A stretch of DNA of 64,000 nucleotides, taken from Haliotis asinina. Taxonomy: Eukaryota > Mollusca > Gastropoda > Lepetellida > Haliotidae. Position numbers and translations under genes: made by a program. This document shows positions 4,170 to 64,000 of this stretch, in pieces (positions within the stretch are counted from its first letter, which is position 1; every line of letters begins with the position of its first letter). The notes beneath the pieces are model-generated. The model was not told where the DNA came from and did not search any database. It was given only the letters and a program-made list of their open reading frames with translations. Where the stretch lies: contig NC_090295.1 of assembly GCF_037392515.1 (NCBI RefSeq), positions 13,039,001 to 13,103,000 of the forward strand. Direction: 5' to 3'.

Positions 4170-7100
4170 TTATTTCCACACTTTGACAACTCCATCCCTT
4201 GATCCTGTGATAACGAGACACTGTGATGACTGACAGATGTTGACGTCGCTGATGATGTCGTGATGGCCGGTGGGAGGAGCCTCAGGAACACGTCTCGGAA
4301 TGTCATCTGAGTTGGCTTGTTTCTTTGTACATACTTCCTGAATCACCTCCGTACCGTCTATCAGCTGAGACCTTCAGACAAACAAGTAACATGTATCAAA
4401 CTTTCACGTCTGAACGCTTCATCTTAAACCTGTTGACATTTGGACAAACGGGGTAGTTCTCCTACTTGTAGTTCTTAGGATACATTGGGAAAGTCTATCA
4501 CCACCACCTCTAGTTACAGGATACATTGAGCAAGTCTGTCAGAACCACCTCCTCTAGTTACAGGATACATTGAACAAGTCTGTCAGAACCACCTCCTCTA
4601 GTTACAGGATACATTGAGCAAGTCTGTCAGAACCACCTCCTCTAGTTACAGGATACATTGAACAAGTCTGTCAGAACCACCTCCTCTAGTTACAGGATAC
4701 ATTGAACAAGTCTGTCAGAACCACCTCCTCTAGTTACATTGAGCAAGTCTGTCAAAACCACCTCCTCTAGTTACAGGATACATTGAACAAGTCTATCAGA
4801 ACCACCTCCTCTAGTTACAGGATACATTGAACAAGTCTGTCAGAACCACCTCCTCTAGTTACAGGATACATTGAACAAGTCTATCAGAACCACCTCCTCT
4901 AGTTACAGGATACATTGAACAAGTCTGTCAGAACCACCTCCTCTAGTTACAGGATACATTGAACAAGTCTGTCAGAACCACCTCCTCTAGTTACAGGATA
5001 CATTGAACAAGTCTGTCAGAACCACCTCTAGTTACAGGATACATTGAGCAAGTCTGTCAGAACCACCTCCTCTAGTTACAGGATACATTGAACAAGTCTG
5101 TCAGAACCACCTCTAGTTACAGGATACATTGAGCAAGTCTGTCAGAACCACCTCCTCTAGTTACAGGATACATTGAACAAGTCTGTCAGAACCACCTCCT
5201 CTAGTTACAGGATACATTGAACAAGTCTGTCAGAACCTCCTCCTCTAGTTACAGGATACATTGAACAAGTCTGTCAGAACCACCTCCTCTAGTTACAGAA
5301 TACATTGAACAAGTCTGTCAGAACCACCTCCTCTAGTTACAGGATACATTGAACAAGTCTGTCAGAACCACCTCCTCTAGTTACAGGATACATTGAACAA
5401 GTCTGTCAGAACCACCTCCTCTAGTTACAGAATACATTGAACAAGTCTGTCAGAACCACCTCCTCTAGTTACAGAATACATTGAGCAAGTCTGTCAGAAC
5501 CACCTCCTCTAGTTACAGAATACATTGAACAAGTCTGTCAGAACCACCTCCTCTAGTTACAGGATACATTGAACAAGTCTCTCAGAACCACCTCCTCTAG
5601 TTACAGAATACATTGAGCAAGTCTGTCAGAACCACCTCCTCTAGTTACAGAATACATTGAACAAGTCTGTCAGAACCACCTCCTCTAGTTACAGAATACA
5701 TTGAGCAAGTCTGTCAGAACCACCTCCTCTAGTTACAGAATACATTGAGCAAGTCTGTCAGAACCACCTCCTCTAGTTACAGAATACATTGAACAAGTCT
5801 GTCAGAACCACCTCCTCTAGTTACAGGATACATTGAGTAAGTTGAGCATGCTGTGCAAGCCAACTGGCCCTACCTGTTGTTATGGTAGACAATAGGTAAG
5901 TCTTAATTTAATATGTGTAGGTGTAGGAGACATTTGGCAAGTCTACTATTCCTACCTTGCATCTGTAGGCAACATCTTTCAAGTATATTGTTCTTACCTG
6001 TAGTTATAGGAGACATTGTGCAAGTCTATTGCTCCTATCTGTAGCTGTAGGATACATTGGGCAAGTCTGCTGTTCCTAACTGTAGCTATAGGAGACATTA
6101 GGCAAGTCTATTGTTCCCACCTATAGTTATAGGACACACTGGGTAAGTCAATTGTCCATACCTGTAGCTGTAGGAGACATTGGGCAAGTGTATTGTTTCC
6201 ACCTATAGCTATAGGACACACTGAGTAAGTCAATTGTCCATACCTGTAGCTGTAGGAGACATTGGGCAAGTCTACTGCTCCATGACTCATGATGAATGAG
6301 TTGGCCGGGTATGTCAGGTCCCAGAATCTCACTCTCATGTCCGAGCCTCCCGTCAACAGGAACAGTTTGGTGTCCGTGGCTGCAATGTGCATCCCATGCA
6401 CAGCATGATTGTTGTTCTGAAGCAGACAAAATCTGATATTAACTGCTGAATGACAGTGTTACAGCTTGTAGGAAAATGTGGAGAAGGAAGAAAGGAGCGA
6501 TGATGGTAATGTTAACTGGAAAGTGCAAGAAGACAGGGCAGCTGAACCTACCTCTGTGACAAGCAAGTGTGCATCTACCTGTGAGATAGAAAGTGGGGAA
6601 GGGGGTGCTGCCCCTAACTGTGAGATAGAGAGTGTCAGAGCTGCACCTACTTCTGAGATGGAGTTTGTCGGAGCTGCACCTACCTGTGTGATGGAGAGTG
6701 GGGAGCTGCACCTACCTGTGAGAAAAAGAGCGTCAGAGCTGCACCTAACTGTGAGGTGGAGTGTATTGGAGCTGCACCTATCTGTGAGATGGAGAGTAGG
6801 GGAGCTGCACCTACCTGTGAGATGGAGAAAGGGGGAGCTGCACCTGCCTGTAAGATGGAGAGTGGGGGCAGCTGCACCTACCTGTGAGATGGAGAGTGGA
6901 GGAGGGGGAGCTGCACCTACCATTGAGATGGAGAGTAGGGGAGAGTGAGCTGCACCTACCTGTGAGATGGAGAGTGTGGGAGGGGAGCTGCACCTACCTG
7001 TGAGATGGAGAATAGGGGAGATGCACCTACCTGTGAGATGGAGAGTGGGGGAGCTGCACCTACCTGTGAGATGGATAGTGGGGGAGCTGCACCTACCTGT

Positions 7101-9477: not shown

Positions 9478-12400
9478 CTGAAAGAACAGAAACATCTTGT
9501 TGCTATTGTAGCTATTTGCAGTTTGTTTTTCATTTGTTTGATCCACATGGGAATATTCCAGTTACATGTTAGAAGCCTGGACTCAAAAATGTGGTAGTGG
9601 TGACTGAAACTGTGAACATGCTAATCAGAACACACAAATCAAAAGAGTCATCAGAAGATGTTAACTCCATTTTGTGTGCTTCATGTTCTATGATTTTTCA
9701 GAAAACATCACCATTATGAATACTATCTTCATTCCACCGCTATATGAGTCTACAAATAGTTCCCGTCTCCTTATTGACCCACAGCTGACAAATAACAAGG
9801 TGTTCAGCTCACTCTGGTGGGACTGCTTGTCGGCCGGCTGCTGGCTAGTGGAGCGCTTCAGGCCTGCCTCCCCACTGGACGAGACATGGGACACGTTCAC
9901 CATACTACTGGATGCTGATTGGCTGGACAGTGTTGATGTGGACCGCTTGTCAAGGTCGTATTTGTCCCCTCCGGACTTAGATTTTGGGGATGAGGAGAGA
10001 GACTTCTCTGATTCCGAGGAACCAAACATCTTCTTCCATTCAGCATTCTGGAAGCATTAACATGCAACATCACTACAACGGCCAGACTTGTACAATAAAC
10101 AGTGATATACAGTTTATCTGTACAGCAACACTGTCACTTGTACAATAACCAGTGATATACAGTTTATCTGTACAGCTACACTGTCACTTGTACAAATACC
10201 ACTGATAGACAGTTTATCTGTACACCTACACTGTCACTTGTACAATAACCAGTGATATACAGTTTATCTGTACACCTACACTGTCACTTGTACAATAACC
10301 AGTGATATTCAGTTTATCTGTACAGCTACACCGTCACTTGTACAAATACCACTGATATACAATTTAAATGTAGAGCTACACTGTCACTTGTACAATAACC
10401 AGTGACATACTGTTTATCTGTACAGCTACACTGTCACTTGTACAATAACCACTGATGTACAGTTTATCTGTACAGGTACACTGTCACTTGTACAATAACC
10501 AGTGATATACAGTTTATCTGTACAGCTACACTGTCAATGTACAGTAACCAGTGATATTCAGTTTATCTGTACAGCTACACTGTCACTTGTACAATAACCA
10601 CTGATGTACAGTTTATCTGTACAGGTACACTGTCACTTGTACAATAACCACTGATATACAGTTTATCTGTATAGCTACACTGTCACTTGTACAATAACCA
10701 CTGATGTACAGTTTATCTGTACAGCTACACTGTCACTTGTACAATAACCAGTGATATACAGTTTATCTGTACAGCTACACTGTCACTTGTACAATAACCA
10801 GTGATATTCAGTTTATCTGTACAGCTACACTGTCACTTGGACTATAACCAGTGATATTCAGTTTATCTGTACAGCTACACTGTCACTTGTACAATAACCA
10901 GTGATATTCAGTTTATCTGTACAGCTACACCGTCACTTGTACAAATACCACTGATATACAATTTAAATGTAGAGCTACACTGTCACTTGTACAGTAACCA
11001 GTGATATTCAGTTTATCTGTACAGCTACACTGTCACTAGTACAATAACCACTGATATACAGTTTATCTGTATAGCTACACTGTCACTTGTACAATAACCA
11101 CTGATGTACAGTTTATCTCTACAGCTACACTGTCACTTGTACAATAACCAGTGATATACAGTTTATCTGTACAGCTACACTGTCACTTGTACAATAACCA
11201 GTGATATTCAGTTTATCTGTACAGCTACACTGTCACTTGGACTATAACCAGTGATATTCAGTTTATCTGTACAGCTACACTGTCACTTGTACAATAACCA
11301 GTGATATTCAGTTTATCTGTACAGGTACACTGTCACTTGTACAAATACCACTGATATACAATTTAAATGTAGAGCTACACTGTCACTTGTACAATAACCA
11401 GTGACATACTGTTTATCTGTACAGCTACACTGTCACTTGTACAATAACCACTGATGTACAGTTTATCTGTACAGGTACACTTGTCACTTGTACAATAACC
11501 AGTGATATACAGTTTATCTGTACAGCTACACTGTCACTTGTACAGTAACCAGTGATATTCAGTTTATCTGTACAGCTACACTGTCACTAGTACAATAACC
11601 ACTGATATACAGTTTATCTGTATAGCTACACTGTCACTTGTACAATAACCACTGATGTACAGTTTATCTGTACAGCTACACTGTCACTTGTACAATAACC
11701 AGTGATATACAGTTTATCTGTACAGCTACACTGTCACTTGTACAATAACCAGTGATTTTCAGTTTATCTGTACAGCTACACTGTCACTTGGACTATAACC
11801 AGTGATATTCAGTTTATCTGTACAGCTACACTGTCACTTGGACTATAAAAAGTGATATTCAGATTATCTGTACAGCTACACTGTCACTTGTACAATTACC
11901 ACTGATATACAGTTTATCTGTACAGCTACACAGTCACTTGGACAATTGCCAGTGACATCTGTACAGCTACACAGTCACTTGGACAATTGCCAGTGACATA
12001 CTGTTTATCTGTACAGCTACACTGTCATTTGTACAATGACCACTGATATACAGTTTACAGTTTTACAGCTAGTACAACAGTAATAAGCAGGGCCCTATGT
12101 GTTAGAGGTACAATGTACTATGGTAACTTGTGATGGAACGATGATTTACAAAGCATTGTAATTTCATTGATTTAATATCTCCTGTTGATTCCAGTTTTGA
12201 ATAATAAACAGTTATCCAAAGTACAAAACGGAGTAAGTACAACTATAAAAAGTCTGGCCATGCTGTCTTAAATTATCAGCTGTTGTCAAAATAATTACCA
12301 TAGCAGCAGAAGAATCCTGATGAACAACTTTCTTTTTACGCCGCCTGAAATGAATAAATGAACATTGTTCATGTTCAACTCTTTCACACCTGTCATGGAA

Positions 12401-15400
12401 CATTTGTTGTATGTAGCTTTGTTTTGTGTGTCAGACGGATGCAATGATATATGGAAACAAGTGAAAACAAACTGTGAGAGAGAAACGACATTTCTGTCAA
12501 GTTACTTTTGGATTTATCAGATAACTATCTCTTTAGACAAACACTCGAGTAAAGCCCCAAATAATATCTGGTCCTTTGGACCTTTGTTTGTTCACTTACG
12601 TTCCTGGTGAAGTCTGTCCATCCGCGGTTTGCTCCTTAGGCTTGTGTAGGTCGGCATGTCTGCGAGTGAGGAAGCGGCCAGTGTAGGGGACATGCTGTAG
12701 TGCCAGTACCCCGGGCCGCTGACCTTCCTCAATGTTGCTGGATGCAGAGTTCTCCATGGACCTGCAACAGGCGGGAAGTAGCAGACGTCAGTAAGTGCCT
12801 GTGTAGTCTGACTGGTTGAAAATGCATGGAGACCGGATGGCTTATCATTTTAGACTCAATTCAAGGACATGAAACCTATCTGCACTCAGTGCAACCCTAG
12901 GTAATATACTGTTGCACCAGACAAAAACAGGCCCAACCTGCTGCAATATATAAAATCTTACATAATGCACCAGTTTGGGTTCAGTTATATTAATCCCATT
13001 ATTCTCCTGTCATCCATATCACTGGCTTCCACCTTAGCATTCCCCTCGGATGTATTATATTAAAGATTAAAGAAGTTGTAAATCCATAGAACTCTCCTTG
13101 TTGTCCAGTTTTGGGATTGATGATTTAAAGTGTCATTATAAGAAACAATATTTTTGAGTCTGATAGATCATATTATCAAGCGTCATAAACCGTAGACACA
13201 CATGATAATTGACTAAAGACCAGTAATAGCTTGTTGATGACCTGAGGTAACTAGCGATTGAAATGATGACAAACACCCACCCAGCTCTTGATCGATGCAG
13301 TTTGGTTATGAAGTCTTTCATAGCCTGAAATATAACAAAATACACCCAAGTAAGTATTTTGTACACTGTAAAGAATACCCACAAAGACTGTATTTTACAT
13401 TCATGAAGCAGATAATGTTTGCCAAACAGTATTTTCTCATTTTAAGTGATCTGGGGCAGGTCACCTGTGGCTAAAAGCATAGATTGCTTAAGATCTTTCA
13501 TAGACCTCAATCCCAAGGGGGTTCACTCACCAGGAGTTTTGTCTCATGGGTCTCAGTCATGCCCAGTGATGTAAGTTTACGAAAAACCTGCAGGAAAACC
13601 AAATGTAGCAATCAATGCCAAATACAGCACAGAGGGAGAGTGACTGGGAGACTGACTGCATGAGAAACAAACCATGAAAGTATTATCAACTGTAAGGTAA
13701 TATGAAGCTTGCCTATTAGCTCCTGATCAGATGCGAAAGACAGTCTATAATCATTAAGTTTGTTCTGAGGTGGAATTTCCTCATGATTTAGTCACAACTT
13801 ATAACAAATAACATAACCATACTCCAAAAGGTATTATAGGTAATTTAAGTATTCAGAAACAATTAATCATTTTGAGATGTTAACACTGTTCTGTGTCTTT
13901 GTCTGTTTGCCATGATAATGAAGAGAGTAGTGAGACTGGGAGCAGCCATCTCCTGTACCTGAGCCAGGTTCTCTTCTAGTTCGGGATAGCCAGGTCTGTG
14001 TCCGGACCTGCTGATGCTCCTGATGTACTTCCTGTTGTTGAGGGTTTCAAACATGGCATCGATGGATGTCGACCTCAACACATAGTCGAACACACTCCGT
14101 GGGATGGGTTCATCTAGCGCGTTCAGCACAATAGGCTACAAAGAAGTTATTGTTCAGAAACTGTTGTTATGTTTTAAATAATAATTTTACATAAACAGAA
14201 ACAGTAGTATCATGTCTCATTGTGGAACTGCAAGTCTCATACTTTGTGTATTACACATTTTTTTAAAGGAGACACAAGCAGTGGGGTAGCATTGTGGTTA
14301 AAGCATTCGCTCATCACGCCATGATTCCCCACATGGGTAGAATGTGTGAAGCCCATTTCTGGTCTTCCCCACCATGATATTGCTGGAATATTGCTAAAAG
14401 CAACACAAAACCTCACTCACTCACTCCTACTGGAAAATTAAACCCAGGTCCTCACCAGCATATATCATGAAAATATTTTCAGATAGGTATCTCTGACAAA
14501 CAGTCTTACCTCCTTATCCAGCTGGAGCACGTGCTGTTTAAGGAAGGGCGCCACCTGCGGGAGGAGGTTACAGTGGAGGTCCGCAATGTTCATGATCCGA
14601 GCCACCGCAGCTACAAATCCAACTGCACCCTGCCTGATCCAGATGCCCTGTGGAGTGGTATGAACGTCTGGGGCTTTTACACAATAACAAGCTTTATCAT
14701 ATACCCATGTAAACTTAAGGTAGTAGCAGAGGCATGCTATACGGATGACATGGTCAAATTCCGTTATTGCACCCCAAATTCCATACTGAACTCGAACATA
14801 GTATGGGAGCAGAGAAACAACTCGTTCTTCAAATTTGTGTCTCTGCTCCCATAACAAAAACTTGTTCAATACAAAACATCCAAATGGACTAGTATGACAT
14901 TCTTGATATTTATCATATGGGCTGCAAATGATCAAGTCTGCTGTACACAAAGCAGTGGATAATAGAAGCAACACCAATGATGTCACTGATAATTGTACAT
15001 GCATTATTCAGGGGTATTTTTGTGATTGAGTCATTGAAGTTCTCTTACCGGGTGTGCAAGGAAAGGGACGATCTCCTGAACAAACTCCTGCAGCATGGGT
15101 TTCTGTAGAAGACCAAGTTCTGACAGAGACTTGATTGCCCCAAGCGCCTTGTGAACAACATACTCCTCTGGATCACTTAGGCCCTGTGAGGAATATCATA
15201 TAGTTGCATCAAATAGTCACATAGTAGACTGGGGATTCCTTAGTCATGTGGAAACTTGGGGAATATCATCGGACAGTCACGTGGCAAGATGGGGAGCATC
15301 ATCTGATATTCATGTGGAAAGGTGGGGAATATCATCAGGTAGTCATGTGGCAAGGTGGGGAATATCATCAGGTAGTCATGTGGCAAGGTGGGGAATATCA

Positions 15401-47785: not shown

Positions 47786-48869
47786 CTAGAAGCATGTACA
47801 TTTTGAGTGTCCTCCCGTAGAATTTATGTTCCAAGTGACCCCTGCATGTTATGCATATTACAGTTACTTTCCCCACCCCTCTCCCATGTTTTTCAATCCT
47901 AATTTTCGTATGCTTATATGTACAAAATTGCTGACACCCCACCCACCTCCCTGGAACAAAATATATGACCACCTGTTGAAATCATCATCAACCTCCCAAG
48001 CCATAAATTGTGAACAGTTCCTTACGATAGATCTTAATGTTACAAATGCTTTGTGAATCAGGACCAAGAATGGTATCCCATATTTTGGCTTTAAGAACTG
48101 AGTTGTCATCTCTATTTAAACTTATATTTAGTATTTAAATATTTATGTTTGTGAAAACTACTTGTCAGGAATGCAGCCTCAATGCGTTCATAACAGGCTT
48201 CATAGCAGGCAGGGTCTCCTCGTAATAAAATGCATATACAAAATAAAGAGTCATTATTTGTATTGTATTTAAGTATTTTATTATCAGTGTGATATATGTA
48301 ATTTATATATTGATTATTGTGTCATTTGCAGAATGGAGGACAGTCTTGGTTACATTATTTCAGGAATATAATGATATATCAAAATACTGATGTATTGTAA
48401 TTGTTTGCCTAATGATTGTCTCATCTGGATATGAATTATAAAACCATGATGGTATTGTTGATAACAATCGATTGTTTCAATAGCTGCTATTAATTACAAC
48501 ATAAATTATGTGTCACAAAATGCTCAGTGTTGGTGAGCAGGGATTATGAAATCAGAATAGAGTTAGTTCCCTTTTGTTTGAGTTGTGACTGGAAAAAAAA
48601 TATCTGAAGTTGAAGTAGCTGGCAACAACTTGTACCTTTCTCTTAAATTTATGATACGATTAAAAAGTGATATTAATATTGTCCCAACATGGATGCACAA
48701 AATACCTCAGCAGAGGAGAATTCAGTTAGAAGATACGCCTTTGGCCAGACAAATGTATTTGGTACTTTTGTGTCAGTATTCAAAAGTGCATGAGCAGGAT
48801 TTATTTCAAACTACAATTGTCTCAAGAATGCCTCAAAGCTGTGGTGATCATCTCAGTCTAACCTGCCTG

Positions 48870-49500
48870 TGCCAGATTGTCTCAAGCTTGTCTCCATCAA
48901 TATTTTGTTGATCTTAGCTTGATCTGACCAACTTGTGCCAGATTGTCTCAAGCTTGTCTCAGTCAGTACAGTGTTGATCTGCAGCTTGATCTGGCCTGAT
49001 TGTGCCAGATTGTCTCAATCTTGTCTCAGTCAGTACAGTGTTGATCTGCAGCTTGAACTGACTTACCTGTGCCAGATTGTCTCAAGCTTGTCTCAGTCAG
49101 TACAGTGTTGATCTGCAGCTTGATCTGGCCCAATTGTGCCAGATTGTCTCAAGCTTGTCTCAGTCAGTACAGTGTTGATCTGCAGCTTGATCTGGCCCAA
49201 TTGTGCCAGATTGTCTCAAGCTTGTCTCAGTCAGTACAGTGCTGATCTGCAGCTTGAACTGACTTACCTGTGCCAGATTGTCTCAAGCTTGTCTCAGTCA
49301 GTACAGTGTTGATCTGCAGCTTGATCTGGCCCAATTGTGCCAGATTGTCTCAAGCTTGTCTCAGTCAGTACAGTGTTGATCTCCAGCTTGATCTGGCCTG
49401 ATTGTGCCAGATTATCTCAAGCCTGTCTCAGTCAGTACAGTGTTGATCTGCAGCGTGATCTGGCCCATTTGTGCCAGATTGTCTCAAGCTTGTCTTAGTT
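48870..49500. repeat. ~65-bp minisatellite, ~9 copies
   Basis: Unit includes TGTGCCAGATTGTCTCAAGC, TTGTCTCAGTCAGTACAGTG and TTGATCTGCAGCTTGATCTGG. Two alternating versions (GATCTGGCCCAATTG and GAACTGACTTACCTG) occur. Intergenic, downstream of ABCF3. Confidence 0.93.
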
Positions 49501-54266: not shown

Positions 54267-54274
54267 ATGCAAAT
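54267..54274 (+). promoter_or_regulatory. Octamer (Oct-1/DSE-like) element
   Basis: ATGCAAAT, 76 bp before the 5' end of the first Y RNA candidate. Octamers serve as the distal element of type 3 Pol III promoters, usually further upstream in vertebrates. Confidence 0.45.
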
Positions 54275-54312
54275 TAAGGATGTATGGTGCTGTTTATAGA
54301 TCCTGGTTGTGG

Positions 54313-54320
54313 TATATATG
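54313..54320 (+). promoter_or_regulatory. TATA box of Y RNA candidate A
   Basis: TATATATG, 30 bp upstream of the RNA start. Confidence 0.6.
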
Positions 54321-54342
54321 TGTTTAAAGCCTCGTGTACAGT

Positions 54343-54450
54343 GGGAGGTCCGATGCCCTGGGTTCATTCTCAGTTCTTATAATTCATTAAACTTATCAGT
54401 CAACGTGTTATAGGATCCTTCGCTCAGGGCGTTTCTTGACCTCCTATTTT
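54343..54450 (+). ncRNA. Y RNA candidate A
   Basis: A hairpin RNA gene of about 108 bp. The terminal stem GGGAGGTC pairs with GACCTCC(T). C9 is left bulged, followed by GATG. A second stem GCCCTGGG pairs over 8 bp with CTCAGGGC, and the loop is about 60 nt. The gene ends in TATTTT. GGTCCGA opposite CTTGAC is the sequence pair that forms the Ro60-binding stem with bulged C in vertebrate Y RNAs. The upstream layout (octamer at -76, TATA at -30) fits a type 3 Pol III promoter. No tRNA-like B box is present, which argues against tRNA or vault RNA. Confidence 0.75.
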
Positions 54451-54486
54451 CATTTTTATGTAACCTGAACACTCCATGAGGGACTA

Positions 54487-54640
54487 TGGTGTGGCTTAGT
54501 GGTTAAAGCGTTCGCTTGTCACGGTGATGACCCGGGTTCGAATCTGCAGGTGAGTACTATCTCTGAAGCCCACATAATGTGTCCCATGCTGTGACATTGC
54601 TGGAATATTGCTAAAAGCGGCATAAAACTAAACTCATTCA
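54487..54640 (+). mobile_element. SINE family 1, well preserved
   Basis: GCTTAGTGGTTAAAGCGTTC (A box), CCCGGGTTCGAATCTGCAGG (B box), GCTGGAATATTGCTAAAAGC, tail AAACTAAACTCATTC. The best tRNA-like promoter of the family in this window. Confidence 0.9.
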
Positions 54641-54739
54641 ACCAATGTGCATGGCGTTATTTATGTATTTGGGTGTGACACACATATTGCGAAAATAACG
54701 GATGGAGGGTCTTAACCCACTTTGATCAATAACGCTGGG

Positions 54740-54843
54740 CCTATATTTTCGAAGCTCTCTTAGCGCTAAGATTGTCGTATGTTAATGTTAATGTATGGCA
54801 CTTACGACTGTCTTAGCGCAAAGAGAGCTTCGAAAATCTAGAG
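54740..54843. mobile_element. Palindromic MITE (TTCGAAGCTCTCTTAGCGCTAAG family)
   Basis: Left arm TATTTTCGAAGCTCTCTTAG with GCGCTAAGATTGTCGTA; right arm TACGACTGTCTTAGCGCAAA then GAGAGCTTCGAAAATCTAG. Folds end to end. Confidence 0.8.
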
Positions 54844-54849
54844 TGCAAC

Positions 54850-55935
54850 ATGGATATAGAGTTTTACAGCAAATCTCTGATAATCCATATATTACTATGT
54901 CACAAAATCGAACTTTGATCTTCGGCTGGAGGAAGCGAAGTAGAGTAAGACTTATATAATTAGTCTCTGAATACATTTAATTTTGAAAAAAACAAGCTAA
55001 CCCATAAAAAATGAGAAGGAGACCCATAGAAACCAGAGATTCAGAACCTGAGGAAATCTAGACTTGCTTCATTTAAGGCCTCGGCATTGCACAGAGGGCT
55101 TGGTAGTGGGGAAAACAGCGTGGTTCAGGGACAATGAGACGGACTAGTAGCAAAGCTTCAGTGGCTTCCACATCTCACGTACAGGTTAAAATTGTGTAAG
55201 GTGCAATTCATGTAAATTTAATTCATGTGTCTTTAACCAGACTGTTTGTAACCTTCATTGAATGAAACGTTAAATAACATTAATTATTGTACTCCTGAGA
55301 GTGAAGTCCCAAAACATTCAAAGTACATCAAAACGTTCCACTGTTTTCAATCGTAGAATGTGCGTCTTTTTAATTTATGGCTAGATTTCCTAAATTGCAA
55401 ACGGCTGAAGGGATAATGTAAATCCAGCTAGGGTTGATGCAGGAAGCAAATATAATGTAAGCCCCATGGACCCTAGTATGGTAATCTACCTTCAGTTGTC
55501 AGCGATCTATAGCCAGCTTTCACATTGTATTGTCCAAATAGTGATATTAGTTTTAACTTTTCCTTCTAGTTTTAATTCTAATTGTGCTATTGAAATTGTT
55601 TTACTGTCCTTTGACGACAGGTTTTTATATTATACATATGTTTCATTTTCAGTGTCACATATGTTGTCGTCACGATATTGCTGAAATATTGCTGGTGTGA
55701 GTTTAATATTCACTCACTCACTCACTCACTCACTAAAATAACATCAATACGAAACAAAAGGCTTCAGACGTTCCTACATCTTTTAATATTGATGCAACTC
55801 TTTTAAAGGTTGCATTTAGCAGTCTTACGACTTGTAGTTTGACTTTATGAATTTACCCGGACCTCGTTAAATCGAAAGTTTAGAACGCTCTCTAGGTCGA
55901 TGATATCAACCACTATAGGCGAGAATGTGTTTGTG
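54850..55935. other. Intergenic, nothing recognised except a SINE-tail remnant
   Basis: Only a GCTGAAATATTGCTGGTGTG plus (CACT)n remnant near 55675-55735 is identifiable. Confidence 0.5.
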
Positions 55936-56096
55936 CTACGACTCAACAGACTTCATGTTTCTGATGCAGGGTTTAGCTTCCTCATTTGAAGTGAATGTTT
56001 CTGAAAAGATGTCAAACGAATCACTAAAGATGGGATGAGGTGAAGACGGGATTGAGTGTTCTCCTGATTCCGAATCCCTGGATCCGGAAAGGTTTG
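55936..56096 (-). other. Possible terminal coding exon (unassigned)
   Basis: The minus strand has TTCCTTACAG, then 2 nt plus 52 open codons and a TAG: NLSGSRDSESGEHSIPSS, then PIFSDSFDIFSETFTSNEEA, ending NMKSVES. Ser/Glu-rich and protein-like, with a good acceptor. I find no convincing upstream exon, and no family is recognised. Confidence 0.3.
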
Positions 56097-56309
56097 CTGT
56101 AAGGAATGAATATACGAGTAATGGGAAAAAACTTGGATCAGATAGTCTCTCTGCCTCAATCGAACATCTTTTTAACAAAGATTCCATATAGAGGGGTTCT
56201 GCCCATTCAGAAAAAGTACAATCCGGATTCTGACTATACCAATACCTTCAACAGGTACACATGTACAGCTCATAATCTGCCTTTTCCGAATAATTTGACA
56301 GCGTATTGC

Positions 56310-56599
56310 CTGGGGTAAATGTGAGTGAGTGAGTGTAGTTTTACGCCGCACTCAGCAATATTCCAGCTATATGGCGGCGGTCTGTAAATAATCGAGTCTG
56401 GACCAGACAATCCAGTGATCAACAACATGAGCATCGATCTGCGCAATGGGGAACCGGTGATATGTGTCAACCAAGTCAGCTAGTCTGACCACCCGATCCC
56501 GTTAGTCGCCTCTTACGACAAGCATAGGCGCCTTTTATGGCAAGCATGGGTTGCTGAAGGCCTATTCTACCCCGGGACCTTCACGGGTCTGGGGTAAAT
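56310..56599 (-). mobile_element. Full-length SINE family 2 with 11-bp target duplication
   Basis: The body 56321-56588 (268 bp, reverse orientation) is flanked by CTGGGGTAAAT at 56310-56320 and 56589-56599. It carries all family-2 blocks and is little diverged. Confidence 0.92.
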
Positions 56600-57270
56600 A
56601 AGATTTAGAGTTGCGGGTATTTTTCAACTGGTAAAAATGTTTAAGAAGATGTGATCATACTATATTAGACTGTTAATATGTTTTATATGGTAAGATACTA
56701 CGCATATCTCAGTCCAGGATAAAATGGATTTAATTCTATTTCATGGTCAGAAATGGCGCACCTTCTCTTTGCGGGGTTACGGAAGGTTAAGTGTACCTCA
56801 GATTATTAAAATTTAAGTCTCCCCCAGATAATAACATTTTCGCTGATAAAACTACCACATATCTCAACTGCTGCCATAACTATTGGTATGAATATACAAG
56901 GAAGCACCAAAGGTCACGTGGCAGGGATTCCTGGCAGTGTCTGCGAGCTAAAAATAACTCTGGCCGAGATTCAACCCACCGCTACAGAACAACCATGCGC
57001 TGTCGGCTCACTTTCCCCACGCTTACGCCTCCAAGCTATAGAGGAATTTCAGATTTTTCAGTATACCATCCTTTTTAATCTTCAGTTTAATCATATCGGG
57101 CTAGTCTTAAACATATGATGTTTAATCACAATATGTACCAAGGTTCAATAGATGTACGTGTAAGTTAACAATGCGTGATGATCGCTGTTTGATTTAACAA
57201 CAGACTTACGAAGCAGTTTATGTATACCTCATCACACCTACGAAGAGATGTGGTTCTCTGACGATGGTAG

Positions 57271-57276
57271 ATATAC
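57271..57276 (+). promoter_or_regulatory. TATA-like box of Y RNA candidate B
   Basis: ATATAC within TAGATATACC, 22-27 bp upstream of the RNA start; the same sequence is found before candidate D. Confidence 0.45.
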
Positions 57277-57297
57277 CTTGAATTTCCTGAAAGAACT

Positions 57298-57399
57298 GGG
57301 AGGTCCGAAGCCCTGGGTTCTCTATCAGCACTCTGAACATTAATTTATCAGCCAAACGCTTATAGTCTTTCACCCAAGGCAACTCTTGACCTCCCTTTT
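57298..57399 (+). ncRNA. Y RNA candidate B
   Basis: The terminal stem GGGAGGTC pairs with GACCTCCC (8 bp), followed by bulged C9 and GAAG opposite CTCTT. The second stem GCCCTGGGT pairs with ACCCAAGGC, with one C-A mismatch. It terminates at TTTT. CTTGACC on the 3' side and GGTCCGA on the 5' side are the vertebrate Y RNA Ro-site words. Compared with candidate A, the second stem changes while pairing is mostly retained. The reverse strand happens to read as an exon-like peptide, which I regard as a shadow of this RNA. Confidence 0.78.
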
Positions 57400-58939
57400 C
57401 TTGCAAGATATAATATGGAGATGGAACTGGTGCGGCAATGGAAGGCTTAACCACTGGGCTATCCCTAAACCAAGTGAGTTTACTTTTACGTCGCTTTTAG
57501 AAGTATTCCTGTAATATCACGGCGGGGGGCACCAGAAATGGGCTTCTCGCCCCTCCACCAAGTAAATTAAATATGTCATTCGTGCAGGGTCTCTTGATTA
57601 TTCGTCGTTTCATGTTGTTCTCCCGAGCTAAGTGAAGTTCAAATCCGATTCAAGATTTGGCCTGTAAGTATGCCCTCTGAGAAATGTATCACGAGACCAT
57701 TTTGCTTGAATCTGTCAAAAATAGGAAGAGCCGTCTATTCACGTCGATCTGTATGGTCTTGAAGGTCTGACCATCTAACACTTCCAAAAAACTGCTTGCC
57801 TATAATTAGGTCCAGTTTTATCTCATGTCTGACCCGTAGTTCAATGTGGGTTGATTTATTCACCAAACACCCGCCGTAATGTTGCTGGAATATCGCTAAC
57901 AGCGGCGTAATACTAAAGTCACTCACTCGCTGACGTTAATGTCTCTCTATCTATCCAATTAAGTTTTTAAAACATTTTTTAATTCCAGTCCAGAGAAGCA
58001 GGGGCCAAATGCAGGTTTGAAAATACATATATGGGATTTCAGTTGCTTCTTTTCATAATCAGGGACAAAGACAACTCATTCACTCACACATCCTCACTCA
58101 TATAAGCACTGACAGTGCAATGTTCATTCATAAAGATTATGGTAGAGTATCCATTTCTGATAACAGTAATCATGTTGACTTTCGGTACAATACTTTTTTT
58201 TTCAACATAATGTTTGTTCTTAAGAACGTCTTTGGAATGTTTCAAGTTATTACCAATGGTTGAGCGTTTACTTATATAAATGTTAAAATTTGCCATTTAG
58301 AGATCCAATCAAAAGGTCTCATCTGAGAACAAATCCCCTACAAACTCTAGACTAAGATTTAGATTACAGCCATGAGTACATGTCTTAAAGAACATGCATA
58401 ATCTCCAAACGTTTTGTAAATAAACACAATCTCGGTTGTTATTTTTTAAATTAGATAAGGAATTGTTTCTGTCTTGTTATTGCAGCAAAGACAACTATCA
58501 TTAGATGCACTGTATCCAGTTAATGGAATCACTTTTGCTCAGATTGATGCTCATGATGTCGATCACTGGATTCTCAGATCCAGATGTGATTATTCACAGG
58601 TCGCGTCTATTAACGAGACTTTTGCTGAGGACGCATTAACGCCAAGCAAACAAACGGTTTAACATCAACGGAAAAGAGCAACGCCTTTTCTTTTTTGTCG
58701 GAATATATGTTAATGAATTTAGACTGAAACAAATAATTCCATTTAAATAAAGAAAAGTAGTCCCGATGAGATTGGCGTTTGATTCATTTAGGGCTTTAGC
58801 ATTGCAGAAATGTCGGGGAGGAGTTTTCAAACACATTTGACACCTGAAAGTGGGTCAAACTTGGTAAGAACGAAAGGCACGTGCAAGTGCGGTCATTTCT
58901 GAAGGGGACGTGATATTGTTGTGATTTTTTCCTTCGCAG

Positions 58940-59019
58940 AAAGACAGGGCGTTTGGAAAAGTTAGCTGAGACAGTAGCTGAGACGGTATCCAGCATCAGA
59001 GGAAGATCACGAAAACCAG
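58940..59019 (+). other. Possible internal coding exon, duplicated
   Basis: A strong acceptor (TTTTTTCCTTCGCAG) and donor (CCAG|GTAAAC) flank 80 nt with one open frame (KTGRLEKLAETVAETVSS then IRGRSRKP). A second copy is at 63886-63965. No partner exons or family are recognised. Confidence 0.3.
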
Positions 59020-59032
59020 GTAAACTCCATGG

Positions 59033-59130
59033 CCTAGATTTTGGAAGCTTTCTTAGCCCTAAGGCAGTCATATATTAACATTACTTTCCAACCATCTTAG
59101 CAAGAACAGAGCTTCGAAAATCTAGGCCCA
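59033..59130. mobile_element. Palindromic MITE, same family as 54740
   Basis: GGCCTAGATTTTGGAAGCTT at the left and AGAGCTTCGAAAATCTAGGC at the right, folding over a ~50-bp centre. The first bases of another copy close the window (63977-64000). Confidence 0.8.
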
Positions 59131-59764
59131 TGGAGAGGAAGATTGTTATTGTTATCCCACACGAAAACCTTTCCTGGTATTGAGATCTATATCGAAGCGA
59201 TTTTATTAGTGTGGTCTCATAAACAAGATTTGTTCTCAGTATGTATCCTAGTGAAAATGTTTTGGTGTCACGTGATAATAATGCAATGGAACTCTGGGAG
59301 CGTAACTACTCTTGTCATTCCGGCAAGCCGGATGGTAGGTCACGGAAAGAGACGAGTAGTTACGAATGGGCCTTCCATCCCACCGACCGGACTCCCCCGA
59401 GGGTTTCCGACAATGCGACTCCGGGTTAACCCGAGTTGTGCCGAGTCTCTTCACACCAACAGCAACAGCTGTAAGTCAGCGCTAAGCATGTATTTGCACG
59501 TCGCTAGCACCACGAGTGATGGTAAAGCGGTATGTATTTCTGCTTCCCAAAATACCATTAACCGTTTCAACATACAGGTCGGAATAACTGCCCAGTAAGT
59601 CACCGTTCACTGTAATCCACCGTTACACAAATCTACAGAAATCAGCAGTTAAATATATCCACATTTTGTACCGAATGATGCATCCGAGTGAATTATTTAC
59701 CAGCAAAATGTGGTGTGTATGGATATGTCGATGCTAGTGCGCGGTACTCGAGAGCCGAGACAGG

Positions 59765-59772
59765 TATATAAG
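59765..59772 (+). promoter_or_regulatory. TATA box of Y RNA candidate C
   Basis: TATATAAG, a canonical TATA box at -30 relative to the RNA start. Confidence 0.65.
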
Positions 59773-59794
59773 GGTTTCGCGTGCTGCATTAGTC

Positions 59795-59883
59795 GGGAGG
59801 TCCGCTGCAGTCGGTTCCGTATCCGCAACTCTGGAAACTGATAAATGTAAGATAACGCCGACTGCGTACCTCGACCTCCTTTT
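59795..59883 (+). ncRNA. Y RNA candidate C
   Basis: About 89 bp. The terminal stem GGGAGGTC pairs with GACCTCC(T), with the same bulged C and G10 as candidates A and B. The second stem is completely different in sequence (GCAGTCGG) but pairs perfectly with CCGACTGC, which is strong covariation. It ends in TTTT directly after the stem. The loop is shorter (about 40 nt). The 3' strand reads CTCGACC rather than CTTGACC. The most diverged member and the one with the best TATA box. Confidence 0.72.
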
Positions 59884-60250
59884 GGTGCCCTTTTGAAACC
59901 ATTATTCCCTACAATAGCCACAAATTTACGATACTACAATCATCCTATCCACACCCGAAGGACATCAACCTCCTTTTGGGAATGAGTTTAGTTTTACGCC
60001 ACTTTCAGCAATATTCCAGTAGTACCACGGTCAGGGACACCCGTACTGGGCTACTTCGAATCGAACCCGTTTAGTGCCTTTTTGATACCATTATTTCCTT
60101 GCGGTGCCACAATACCCCATTGCAACAACCTTCTTTTCCACACTCACACGACCTCAGTGCAAGTGTGAAACTTCCTTTCAGTGACTTTTTGAAAGCATTA
60201 TTTTCTTGCGGACCCACACTATTTTCATACCACGATCTCCCTGTACTGAC
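59876..60250 (+). repeat. Three degenerate units downstream of Y RNA C
   Basis: Blocks near 59885, 60070 and 60180 share TGCC(C/T)TTTTGA(A/T)ACCATTATT(C/T)CCT or close variants, then GCCACA and a C-rich end. A reverse SINE fragment (about 59982-60060) separates the first two. Confidence 0.6.
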
Positions 60251-60321
60251 CACCTTAGTTCCTTTTTCATGTAAATACGCCTGTTTTTACTGTGTCATAT
60301 CCCGAAATGTTTTCCATACAG

Positions 60322-60557
60322 ACAGATCCGTGAAGATCCGGGTTAGAATTGATCTTAATAACCCATGCTTGTCACAAGAGGTAACTAACAGGATCGGGTG
60401 GTCAGGCTCGCTGTCTTGGTTGACTCTTGTCATTGTATCCCAGTTGCCTCGGTCGATGCTCATGCTATTGACTACTGGATTGCCTGGACCAGACTCGGTT
60501 ATTTGTAATTTACAGACCGCTGCTATATAGCAGGAGTATGGATGAGTAAAACCCACT
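60322..60557 (+). mobile_element. SINE family 2, diverged
   Basis: AGATCCGTGAAGATCCGGGT to TATAGCAGGAGTATGGATGA; core GGTCGATGCTCATGCTATTG. Confidence 0.8.
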
Positions 60558-61023
60558 TTCGGTGCACATACTGTTGATCACTTGATTGTCTGATCCTGAC
60601 TTGATGTATTCACAGACCATAGCTGGAAATAATACTGCTGGGTGACACGTTAAACACATGTTATCGTACCTGTCTCCATATGTTATAACTCTAATGTGAG
60701 TGTGATAAATATTTAATGAATGAATAACGCCGTGTGCATCAAAGGTGGCGATAACAGAAATATTGCCAACAGCGCCGTAAAACCATGCCAACTCGTTCCA
60801 CTGAAATCAAACTCCCCGTGAACCACGTGAAAAGTCAATCACGAAACCCGTGCTGCCTGGTGCCCAAGTCTGTCAAACAGGACCTGAAAAAAATATATCC
60901 AGGAAAGCCCATGCAAGTCTAGAATATGTGGATTTCCACAGTTTCAGTTTCTGAAAAGAAGACAGTCTCTGGGTTCATTTCATTTGGGAACTGTGTATTT
61001 TCTATAAAATACGTTTATTTCAG

Positions 61024-61279
61024 ACAAGATGTTAATATTCCCGATGCCCCTGTTGCAGTCATTCTGCCCAAGACATTCAGCCAATCAGAAACCAAATCTT
61101 TCGAGTCCTCGGCCTTGAACAGTGAATCGTCCGTAATGTTTGGCGATTGCAGTGAGACAGCAGAGCCTCCAGAGGCGTCAATAGACGTCCTCACAACAAA
61201 GCATCGGGCCAAGTTAATGCAGCAGTTACATCTAGAGAGGGGCATGGCACCGGTCTGCTCAGTACACAAACGAATTTAA
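61024..61279 (+). other. Possible terminal coding exon (unassigned)
   Basis: After TTTATTTCAG, 85 open codons run to TAA: QDVNIPDAPVAVILPKTFSQ, then a Ser/Glu-rich part and KHRAKLMQQLHLERG. It is protein-like, but no family or upstream exon is recognised. The segment just before it (60867-61023) is a repeat that also occurs at 62368-62560, so the acceptor may be part of a mobile sequence. Confidence 0.3.
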
Positions 61280-62227
61280 TTATATGTTCTGTGTTTTACT
61301 TATAGCAGGATTCTGAGGGTTTGGTTGAAGGTGAGAAAGCATAGGGAATGGCTTGAGCACGGTTAAAAGCCGAGCTCGACGTTTCACGTTTTCATCCAGA
61401 ACAAGGGCTATTTTAACAAACACAATGCAAGGGAACTAATATTGTGGATATTATGTCGCTGTGAACAGTTATGCTTCTTTATTCCCCCACTTTGACGAGA
61501 ACGATAATAGTTTCTTTATCAGATAGCCCAAAACCTACCGCTGGACCCAGTAAAAGAAAACTGAGGGAGGTAATTTCTTTTCGTTGTCTTCTAGAATTTT
61601 AACGCCAGAATGTTTTGTCAGGGCGTAGGCTTTCTACAAAAGAAGAGTAGTGTAAAACTGCAAAGGAGAATTGATTAAAATTAAATACAAGATTGGAAGT
61701 CAAAACTTCGTTTACAGATTCGCTCAATTTGCATTCCAGTGTAATAAAAAAAATCACACAGTCAAGTTGAATTAGCGTTCCTCTGAGAAAGGGACTTTGG
61801 TTTGAAGGGAAACCATCCATTTGTTGTGTTGTTTTTCGCCCCAAATTCCCCCTTGACTTAGCAGCGATCTTTTTCCTGATGAGATACATGAAAGCAGTAA
61901 GCATACTTCTTCCAAAACTATCACCGACTCTTTCAATTCCATCTACTTAGAAAACAGTGCCTTAAGGTACATGAAAGAGGAATTTCAGATTTTTCAGAAT
62001 ACCATCCTTTTCAATCTTCAGTTTAATCATATGGTCTTAAACATATGATGTTTAATCACAATATGTACCAAGGTTCAATAGATGTACATGTAAGTTAACA
62101 ATGCGTGATGATCGCTGTTTGATTTAACAACAGACTTATGAAGCAGTTTATGTATACCTCATCACACCTACGAACAGATGTCGTTCTCTGACGATGGTAG
62201 ATATACCTTGAATTTCCTGAAAGAACT

Positions 62228-62329
62228 GGGAGGTCCGAAGCCCTGGGTTCTCTATCAGCACTCTGAACATTAATTTATCAGCCAAACGCTTATAGTCTTT
62301 CACCCAAGGCAACTCTTGACCTCCCTTTT
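62228..62329 (+). ncRNA. Y RNA candidate D
   Basis: Identical by eye to candidate B over the whole 102-bp RNA and terminator, while the 5' flank (57220-57260 versus 62157-62197) carries several substitutions. Same TATA-like box 22-27 bp upstream. It is a recent duplicate that should still be functional if B is. Confidence 0.77.
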
Positions 62330-62365
62330 CTTGCAAGATATAATATGGAGATGGAACTGGTGCGG

Positions 62366-62576
62366 TAGTCTGTCGTACAGACCCTGAAGTATATATATCC
62401 AAGAAAGCCCACGCAAGTCTAGAAAATGTGGCAAGTCTAGATTTCCATAGCTTCATGAAATGAAGAAAGTCTGAGGGCTCCATTTCATTATATTATTTGT
62501 TTTCATTTTTCACTATGAACGTTTTTTCAGTAAAATATGTTGATTTCAGAGACTAGCTGTTAGTCTGCTGGTGCGG
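62366..62576. mobile_element. ~211-bp insertion flanked by 9-bp direct repeats
   Basis: CTGGTGCGG occurs at 62357-62365 and 62568-62576, and copy 1 of the duplication has it once. The insert is a diverged relative of 60867-61023. It contains TCCAAGAAAGCCCACGCAAG, against TCCAGGAAAGCCCATGCAAG there. Confidence 0.75.
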
Positions 62577-63885
62577 CAATGGAAGGCTTAACCACTGGGC
62601 TATCCCTAAACCAAGTGAGTTTACTTTTGTGTCGCTTTTAGAAGTATTCCTGCAATATCACGGCGGGGGGCACCAGAAATGGGCTTCTCGCCCCTCCACC
62701 AAGTAAATTAAGTATGTCATTCGTGCAGGGTCTGTTAATTATTCGTCGTTTCATGTTGTTCTCCCGAGCTAAGTGAAGTTCAAATCCGATTCAAGATTTG
62801 GCCTGTAAGTATGCCCTCTGAGAAATGTGTCACGAGACCATTTTGCTTGAATCTGTCAAAAATTGGAAAAGCCGTCTATTCACGTTGATCTGTATGGTCT
62901 TGAAGGTCTGACCATCTAACACTTCCAAAAACCTGCTTGTCTATAATTAGGTCCAGTTTTATCTCATGTCTGACCCGTAGTTCAATGTGGGTTGATTTAT
63001 TCACCAAACACCCGCCGTAATGTTGCTGGAATATCGCTAACAGCGGCGTAATACTAAAGTCACTCACTCGCTGACGTTAATGTCTCTCTATCTATCCAAT
63101 TAAGTTTTTAAAACATTTTTTAATTCCAGTCCAGGGAAACAGGGGCCAAATGCAGGTTTGAAAATACATATATGGGATTTCAGTTGCTTCTTTTCATAAT
63201 CAGGGACAAAGACAACTCATTCACTCACACATCCTCACTCATACAAGCACTGACAGTGCAATGTTCATTCATAAAGATTATGGTAGAGCATCCATTTCTG
63301 ATAACAGTAATCTTGTTGACTTTCGGCACAATACTTGTTATTTTCAACATAATGTTTGTTCTGAAGAATCTTTGGAATGTTTCAAGTTATTACCGATGAT
63401 TGAGCGTTTACATATATATAAATGTTAAAATTTTGCCATTGAGAAGGTCCAATCAAAAGGTCTCATCTGAAAACAAATCCTCTTTATCTTAAAAACCCCT
63501 GCAAACTCTAGACTAAGATTTAGGTTACAGTCATGAGTACATTTCTTAAAGAACATGTATAATCTCCAAACGTTTTGTAAATAAACACAATCTCGGTTGT
63601 TATTTTTTAAATTAGATGAGGAATTGTTTCTGTCTTGTTATTGCAGCAAAGACAACTATCATTAGATGCACTGTATCCAGTTAATGGAATCACTTTTGCT
63701 CAGATTGATGCTCATGATGTCGATCACTGGATTCTCAGGTCCAGATGTGATTATTCACAGGTCGCGTCTAATAACGAGACTTTTGCTGAGGACGCATTAA
63801 CGCCAAGCAAACAAACGGTTTAACATGTGCAAGTGCGGTCATTTCTGAAGGGGACGTGATATTGTTGTGATTTTTTCCTTCGCAG

Positions 63886-63965
63886 AAAGACAGGGCGTTT
63901 GGAAAAGTTAGCTGAGACAGTAGCTGAGACGGTATCCAACATCCGACGAAGACCACAAAAACCAG
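63886..63965 (+). other. Second copy of the exon-like segment
   Basis: Same acceptor, donor and open frame as 58940-59019. The differences are clustered in the last third and are mostly replacements (SSIRGRSRK versus SNIRRRPQK). They show no signature of purifying selection. Confidence 0.28.
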
Positions 63966-64000
63966 GTAAACTCCATGGCCTAGATTTTGGAAGCTCTCTT

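Follow-up and report, generated by a model that had tools for sequence, protein, structure and literature searches.

Probable Y RNA genes in a small tandem cluster of an invertebrate genome

Hairpin genes and their flanking signals

The window analysed here is the whole 64,000-nucleotide (64-kb) stretch of contig NC_090295.1 from position 13,039,001 to 13,103,000. It carries four hairpin genes, designated A, B, C and D, which lie on the plus strand within its last 10 kb and very probably represent Y RNA genes of an invertebrate animal, arranged as a small tandem cluster. The cluster consists of three distinct genes and one recent copy, D being derived from B. An initial annotation of the window had proposed four plus-strand hairpin genes and all four were found where it had placed them, although they do not amount to four independent genes, as D is an identical copy of B situated in a segmental duplication. 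The genes and their parts, numbered from the first base of the window, are as follows (RF00019 being the Y_RNA family of Rfam).

54343-54450, plus strand: gene A, putative Y RNA homologue (RF00019 30.4 bits in a 201-base scan; pairing; folding z -4.96)
54343-54350 / 54438-54445, plus strand: lower stem of gene A; 54355-54363 / 54422-54430, its upper stem (pairing)
54351, plus strand: bulged C of gene A; 54447-54450, its TTTT
57298-57399, plus strand: gene B, putative Y RNA homologue (RF00019 36.0 bits; pairing; fold)
57298-57305 / 57388-57395, plus strand: lower stem of gene B; 57310-57318 / 57372-57380, its upper stem, with one C.A mismatch
57306, plus strand: bulged C of gene B; 57396-57399, its TTTT
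59795-59883, plus strand: gene C, diverged paralogue (model of A and B only, 44.5 bits, E 3.5e-9; folding z -3.75)
59795-59802 / 59873-59880, plus strand: lower stem of gene C; 59807-59815 / 59857-59865, its upper stem
59803, plus strand: bulged C of gene C; 59880-59883, its TTTT, the first T doubling as the stem-closing base
62228-62329, plus strand: gene D, copy of B (RF00019 36.0 bits; duplication alignment)
62228-62235 / 62318-62325, plus strand: lower stem of gene D; 62240-62248 / 62302-62310, its upper stem
62326-62329, plus strand: TTTT of gene D

The terminal stem was confirmed to be common to the four genes, with GGGAGGTCCG occurring exactly four times in the window and the 8-bp lower stem intact in each gene. 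With one mismatch allowed, this sequence was matched five times against an expectation of 0.70 in 64 kb, and at least five matches were seen in none of 100 shuffles. The two-part pattern GAGGTCCG-N50-80-GACCTCC gave three matches (B, C and D) against 0.00 expected; gene A was missed because the spacer was limited to 80 bases and that of A is 85.

Upstream of all four genes, a TATA-like box (GGTA[T/G]ATA) was found at a fixed offset of -32. The box was therefore present as annotated, while the annotated range of 22-30 bp was replaced by this single distance. These boxes, and a further candidate element upstream of A, are listed below.

54311-54318, plus strand: TATA-like box of A at -32, GGTATATA
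57266-57273, plus strand: TATA-like box of B at -32, GGTAGATA
59763-59770, plus strand: TATA-like box of C at -32, GGTATATA
62196-62203, plus strand: TATA-like box of D at -32, GGTAGATA
54267-54274, plus strand: octamer ATGCAAAT, a possible distal element about 70-76 bp upstream of A (read from sequence)

Taken over 8 bases at one offset within the zone tested, the TATA-like block was equalled by none of 20000 random triples, in a test that was framed post hoc. The octamer ATGCAAAT, which may act as a distal element, had no counterpart within 110 bases upstream of the other three genes. At the other end, TTTT was found at the end of the stem in four of four genes, as had been claimed. The TATA-like box and the TTTT fit a gene of RNA polymerase III (Pol III) with an upstream promoter, from which transcription would be predicted.

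Pairing, folding and Y RNA landmarks

In the alignment of A, B and C, all three genes have a terminal stem of 8 bp, a C bulged out at position 9, and a nine-pair second stem. Pairing was kept in 50 of 51 cells over the three genes, the sole exception being the C.A mismatch in B. Among the pairs of the upper stem, four were invariant, two were changed on one side and three were changed on both sides, with all of the double changes occurring in C (C-G to A-U, C-G to G-C and G-C to C-G). The claim of a second stem that varies in sequence and remains paired was thus borne out. In slid controls 32-51% of cells paired, and the observed pairing value was reached in 17 of 500 shuffles. An alignment-based fold, suggested with the initial annotation as a check, was obtained with RNAalifold, which recovered the two stems unaided from the alignment of A, B and C. 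Folded as single sequences, the genes gave z values of -4.96 (A), -4.62 (B) and -3.75 (C), with 0/200, 0/200 and 1/200 shuffles, respectively, folding equally well.

The C at position 9 was found in A, B and C (D being identical to B), flanked by pairs 8-96 and 10-93. The letters GGUCCGA / CUUGACC agree with the consensus line of RF00019 and, with a lower helix of at least seven pairs, are complete in A, B and D; we take GGUC-C-GA / CUU-GACC in these genes to be the Ro60 site. The nine-pair upper stem of A, B and D possesses G-C clamps and a central UG-CA, with one C.A mismatch in B and D, while that of gene C has UC-GA in place of this core. The loop motif UUA(U/C)C was not found at its usual place, where A has UUCAU, B has UUCUC and C has UUCCG; UUAUC was found in the middle of the loop in A, B and D only.

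These landmarks can be set beside the portions drawn on here of three papers (PMC4726728, PMC4450293 and PMC4030889). A bulged C9 is named for human Y RNAs (PMC4030889, in part), and the UUA(U/C)C loop motif is described as 'typically' present (PMC4450293, in part). Passages of all three place Ro60 on a lower helix that has a bulged C and a bulge opposite it, and La on the U tail; an upper stem with UG-CA is described as supporting replication in assays with vertebrate and nematode RNAs. The agreement of the landmarks with these passages supports the reading of the genes as Y RNAs.

Comparison with Rfam was made against a gathering score of 38 bits for RF00019, which is a score cut-off and no biological feature. 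In a scan of 10 kb with 4227 families at a lax threshold, RF00019 matched B and D over the full model with 36.0 bits (E 2.1e-4), and A was matched with 30.4 bits (E 1.2e-4) when only the 201 bases around it were scanned with laxer filters. Bases 1-54000 gave no Y_RNA match at E up to 10 under filters tighter than those of the scan that found A, and a match as weak as that of A could be lost in such a scan because A itself was lost in the 10-kb scan. At E up to 10, Y_RNA was the only Rfam family to overlap A, B or D, and the only family overlapping C was the small nucleolar RNA Afu_198, at the chance level of 9.9 bits (E 7.6). Assignment of the four genes to tRNA or another Rfam family was rejected. 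The annotated Y RNA identity was supported by the proposed Rfam covariance-model search for B, D and A, all below the gathering score, and this support did not extend to C, which RF00019 left unmatched and which departs from the Ro60 motif.

Covariance models were also built from the genes themselves and used with filters off, every position of the whole window being scored. With the model of A, B and C, the plus-strand matches at E below 1 were the four genes only, the next best having 9.9 bits (E 2.1). A model of A and B only recovered C with 44.5 bits (E 3.5e-9), whereas nothing on the plus strand other than the four genes exceeded 14.4 bits (E 0.23), and C is therefore placed as a diverged paralogue: its fold is kept, two bases of its Ro60 motif are changed and the UG-CA core is gone. 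Both models also matched the minus strand at B and D, the three-gene model with 21.7 bits (E 0.00099) and the model of A and B only with 23.5 bits (E 0.001); these matches are the mirror image of the hairpin and were rejected. Copies were searched for in IMG/VR with two patterns, each giving 0 matches.

A number of results weigh against the Y RNA reading. At the curated Rfam cut-offs no match was found anywhere in the window and no gene reached the gathering score. Genes A and C were missing from the RF00019 matches listed at E up to 10 when 10 kb were scanned, and the 201-base stretch around A was picked because of the finding itself. For gene C no Y_RNA match was obtained even in a scan of 171 bases, and the gene is two bases off the Ro60 motif, with GGUCCGC and CUCGACC. 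The full upper-stem motif A/GUG-CAC/U is absent, as A has CUG-CAG, B and D are mismatched at that pair and C differs; the CeY RNA is also described without it (PMC4450293, in part), and the motif is therefore not defining for the whole family. When wider blocks with free offsets were compared with 60 random triples, the TATA-like block only equalled the best of them over 12 bases and was one better over 16 and over 20. For a shared proximal sequence element of type 3 promoters, no block above the null was identified between -110 and -36, and a conserved element of this kind was not supported. Covariation from three sequences is modest and thin evidence, given the 17 of 500 shuffles mentioned above. 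A scan of both strands for bare geometry (an 8-bp stem, at least eight of nine pairs in the second stem, and TTTT) recovered A, B and D but not C, and returned five unrelated places, one on the plus and four on the minus strand; geometry alone was therefore rejected as evidence, and the case rests on shared sequence, not on geometry. Finally, the evidence is made up of the sequences of this window.

Under the Y RNA reading, A, B and D are putative homologues that would be made by Pol III and are probably bound by Ro60. The pairing and the Rfam match suggest a transcript of about 90-107 nt whose ends pair as the 8-bp stem with the bulged C9. From what is known of the family, Ro60, a quality-control protein, would sit on this stem and La on the U tail, and their binding may yield a stable RNA that gates the access of Ro60 to other RNAs. 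Genes A, B and D would in this way form Ro particles, while C would probably be a weaker Ro60 binder or have a specialized role of its own.

Duplication, repeats and alternative explanations

Comparison of the window with itself (blastn) identified the duplication that holds B and D.

57040-59054, strand not applicable: duplication copy 1, with gene B
61976-64000, strand not applicable: duplication copy 2, with gene D, homology continuing to the end of the window

The cluster has grown by this segmental duplication of about 2 kb, within which all 102 bases of B recur unchanged in D. The two copies differ by 47 substitutions in 1792 aligned columns and by several indels. Copy 2 reaches the end of the window, and a copy of C is therefore predicted near 64740, 741 bases past 64000 (59795 - 59054). 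The longest substitution-free stretch between the duplicates is 235 columns, with the gene inside. A strong argument for purifying selection was rejected, as finding 0/102 changes between B and D has P 0.066 at a background of 2.6%, and 315 of the 1690 windows of this length are no less clean. A 211-bp segment at 62358-62568 is found in the D copy and is absent from the B copy; it is partly similar to 60858-60984, and a short direct repeat, CTGGTGCGG, was seen by eye at its flanks.

The surroundings of the genes are rich in repeats, and the hairpins could be part of a family of short interspersed nuclear elements (SINEs) or miniature inverted-repeat transposable elements (MITEs) that is only Y RNA-like. 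A SINE-like element with a tRNA head lies within about 40 bp of the end of A, palindromic elements are found at 54736 and 59031, and B and D fall within a duplicated segment. Such an origin is nevertheless highly improbable, as the SINE-like elements have many copies, unlike the hairpin genes, for which the three-gene model returned its four plus-strand matches and nothing else at E below 1. The upper stem carries compensatory changes, and A, B and C have the gene and the TATA-like box in common without similarity of their flanks in a self-comparison at E 1e-20, a level at which weak similarity would escape. The hairpins might instead be pseudogenes that arose from functional Y RNA genes at other loci, given the scores under the gathering value, the upper-stem mismatch in B and D, and the recent origin of D. 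This too is very unlikely, if slightly less so: retropseudogenes have no promoter, whereas the TATA-like box at -32, the intact lower stem and the terminator are present in four of four genes. The location of the gene in the longest clean stretch between the duplicates points the same way, but is weak for the reasons given above.

Most improbable of all is that the genes represent another class of Pol III RNA, such as vault RNA or an unnamed stem RNA, with a stem that became Y-like by convergence. The missing Rfam match for C and the absence of the typical loop motif would agree with this, and the GGTTC that the genes share at position 19 is reminiscent of how a B box begins, but the remainder of the box does not follow. 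Up to an E value of 10, no other family was matched by A, B and D, and C had only its chance-level match; moreover, A, B and D match the Ro60-binding part exactly (C9, GGUCCGA and CUUGACC). A small tandem cluster of Y RNA genes is thus retained as the best explanation of the locus.

Further repeats, which seem to resemble those of abalones, and open reading frames (ORFs) were observed in the window. The SINE-like element with a tRNA-type head spans 54480-54650, with what are presumably an A box, TGGCTTAGTGG, at 54492 and a B box, GGTTCGAATC, 43 bases on; its tail recurs in many of the window's other repeats. At 56322-56591 lies a repeat of about 270 bp that has four more near full-length copies on both strands (25010, 35484, 42653 and 49693), along with shorter ones. 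The palindromic elements at 54736-54846 and 59031-59130 are related, the first with TTTTCGAAGCTCTCTTAGCGC, and are probably MITE-like; matches to mir-992 and mir-8364 at 54736-54846 were far under the Rfam cut-offs. Large tandem arrays were identified at 4500-5836, 10086-12057 and 48868-49499, with units of 44, 50 and 67 bp. Of the 20 listed ORFs of at least 120 aa, 10 were compared with Pfam and no family was found. A minus-strand ORF of 180 aa at 14465-15007, with a start that resembles a signal peptide by eye, had no Pfam match and one homologue, an unnamed protein of 174 aa (64% identity over 34% of the query).

Comparison with known Y RNAs

Like the vertebrate Y RNAs (RF00019; RNY1, RNY3, RNY4 and RNY5), the genes described here possess an 8-bp terminal stem, a bulged C9, a second stem, a large variable loop and a U tail, with the GGUCCGA / CUUGAC site in A, B and D; they are likewise clustered and would be transcribed by Pol III. 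They differ in the upper stem of A (CUG-CAG, not GUG-CAC), in the 30-36 bits of A, B and D, which lie under 38, and in the divergence of C at the Ro60 motif. The bulge opposite C9 was drawn as two bases in the consensus fold, in contrast to the three given in the part of PMC4726728 drawn on here. With the nematode stem-bulge RNAs (sbRNAs), as far as PMC4450293 was drawn on, A, B and D share an upper stem of nine pairs that has G-C clamps and UG-CA at its centre, as well as a single bulged C; differences are UUAUC lying mid-loop in A, B and D only, and the UC-GA of C. These nematode RNAs are described as occurring in tandem arrays, as does the cluster here (PMC5745555, in part). Gene C resembles the Caenorhabditis elegans CeY RNA, in which the lower stem binds Ro and the upper stem lacks the replication motif; CeY is reported as an outlier gene, whereas C is a diverged paralogue beside more canonical genes.

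Y-like RNAs were listed from vertebrates, nematodes, two insects, a lancelet and some bacteria in the relevant part of a 2015 review (PMC4726728). From the corresponding portions of two other sources, Y RNAs were expected and not found in schistosomes in a 2009 survey (PMC2770079), and the failure to find them in a tunicate was read as a limit of sensitivity (PMC5006418). Beyond vertebrates, worms and a handful of further animals, there seem to be few descriptions of such genes. Little description of such a cluster in molluscs had also been claimed, and among the literature matches listed no molluscan Y RNA is described, which agrees with the claim as far as it goes, most subscription papers falling outside the search. 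The matches for Y RNA with mollusc or Lottia were a phage paper that names Y RNA in connection with a phage Ro60-like protein, a proteomics paper whose main text lacks the term, an ORC paper with the term in a reference only, and a review of vesicles that names human Y RNAs, none describing a molluscan Y RNA, and the terms 'Y RNA', 'vault', 'ncRNA' and 'non-coding RNA' are all missing from the main text of the Biomphalaria genome paper.

As a tentative scenario, which may well prove wrong, the full Ro60 site and a UG-CA upper stem could have been present together in a Y RNA that predates the split of the protostome lineages. In the present lineage this RNA would have given rise to a growing tandem cluster in which C lost bases of the Ro60 site and the replication core, with Ro60 binding and other roles divided among the paralogues. 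If the Y RNA identity is true, genes of this kind fall short of the Rfam cut-off by 2 to 8 bits (A, B and D) or escape it altogether (C), and the sequences would provide seeds for finding Y RNA genes across the group. The cluster would also help to fill the invertebrate gap, if the genome is that of a mollusc.

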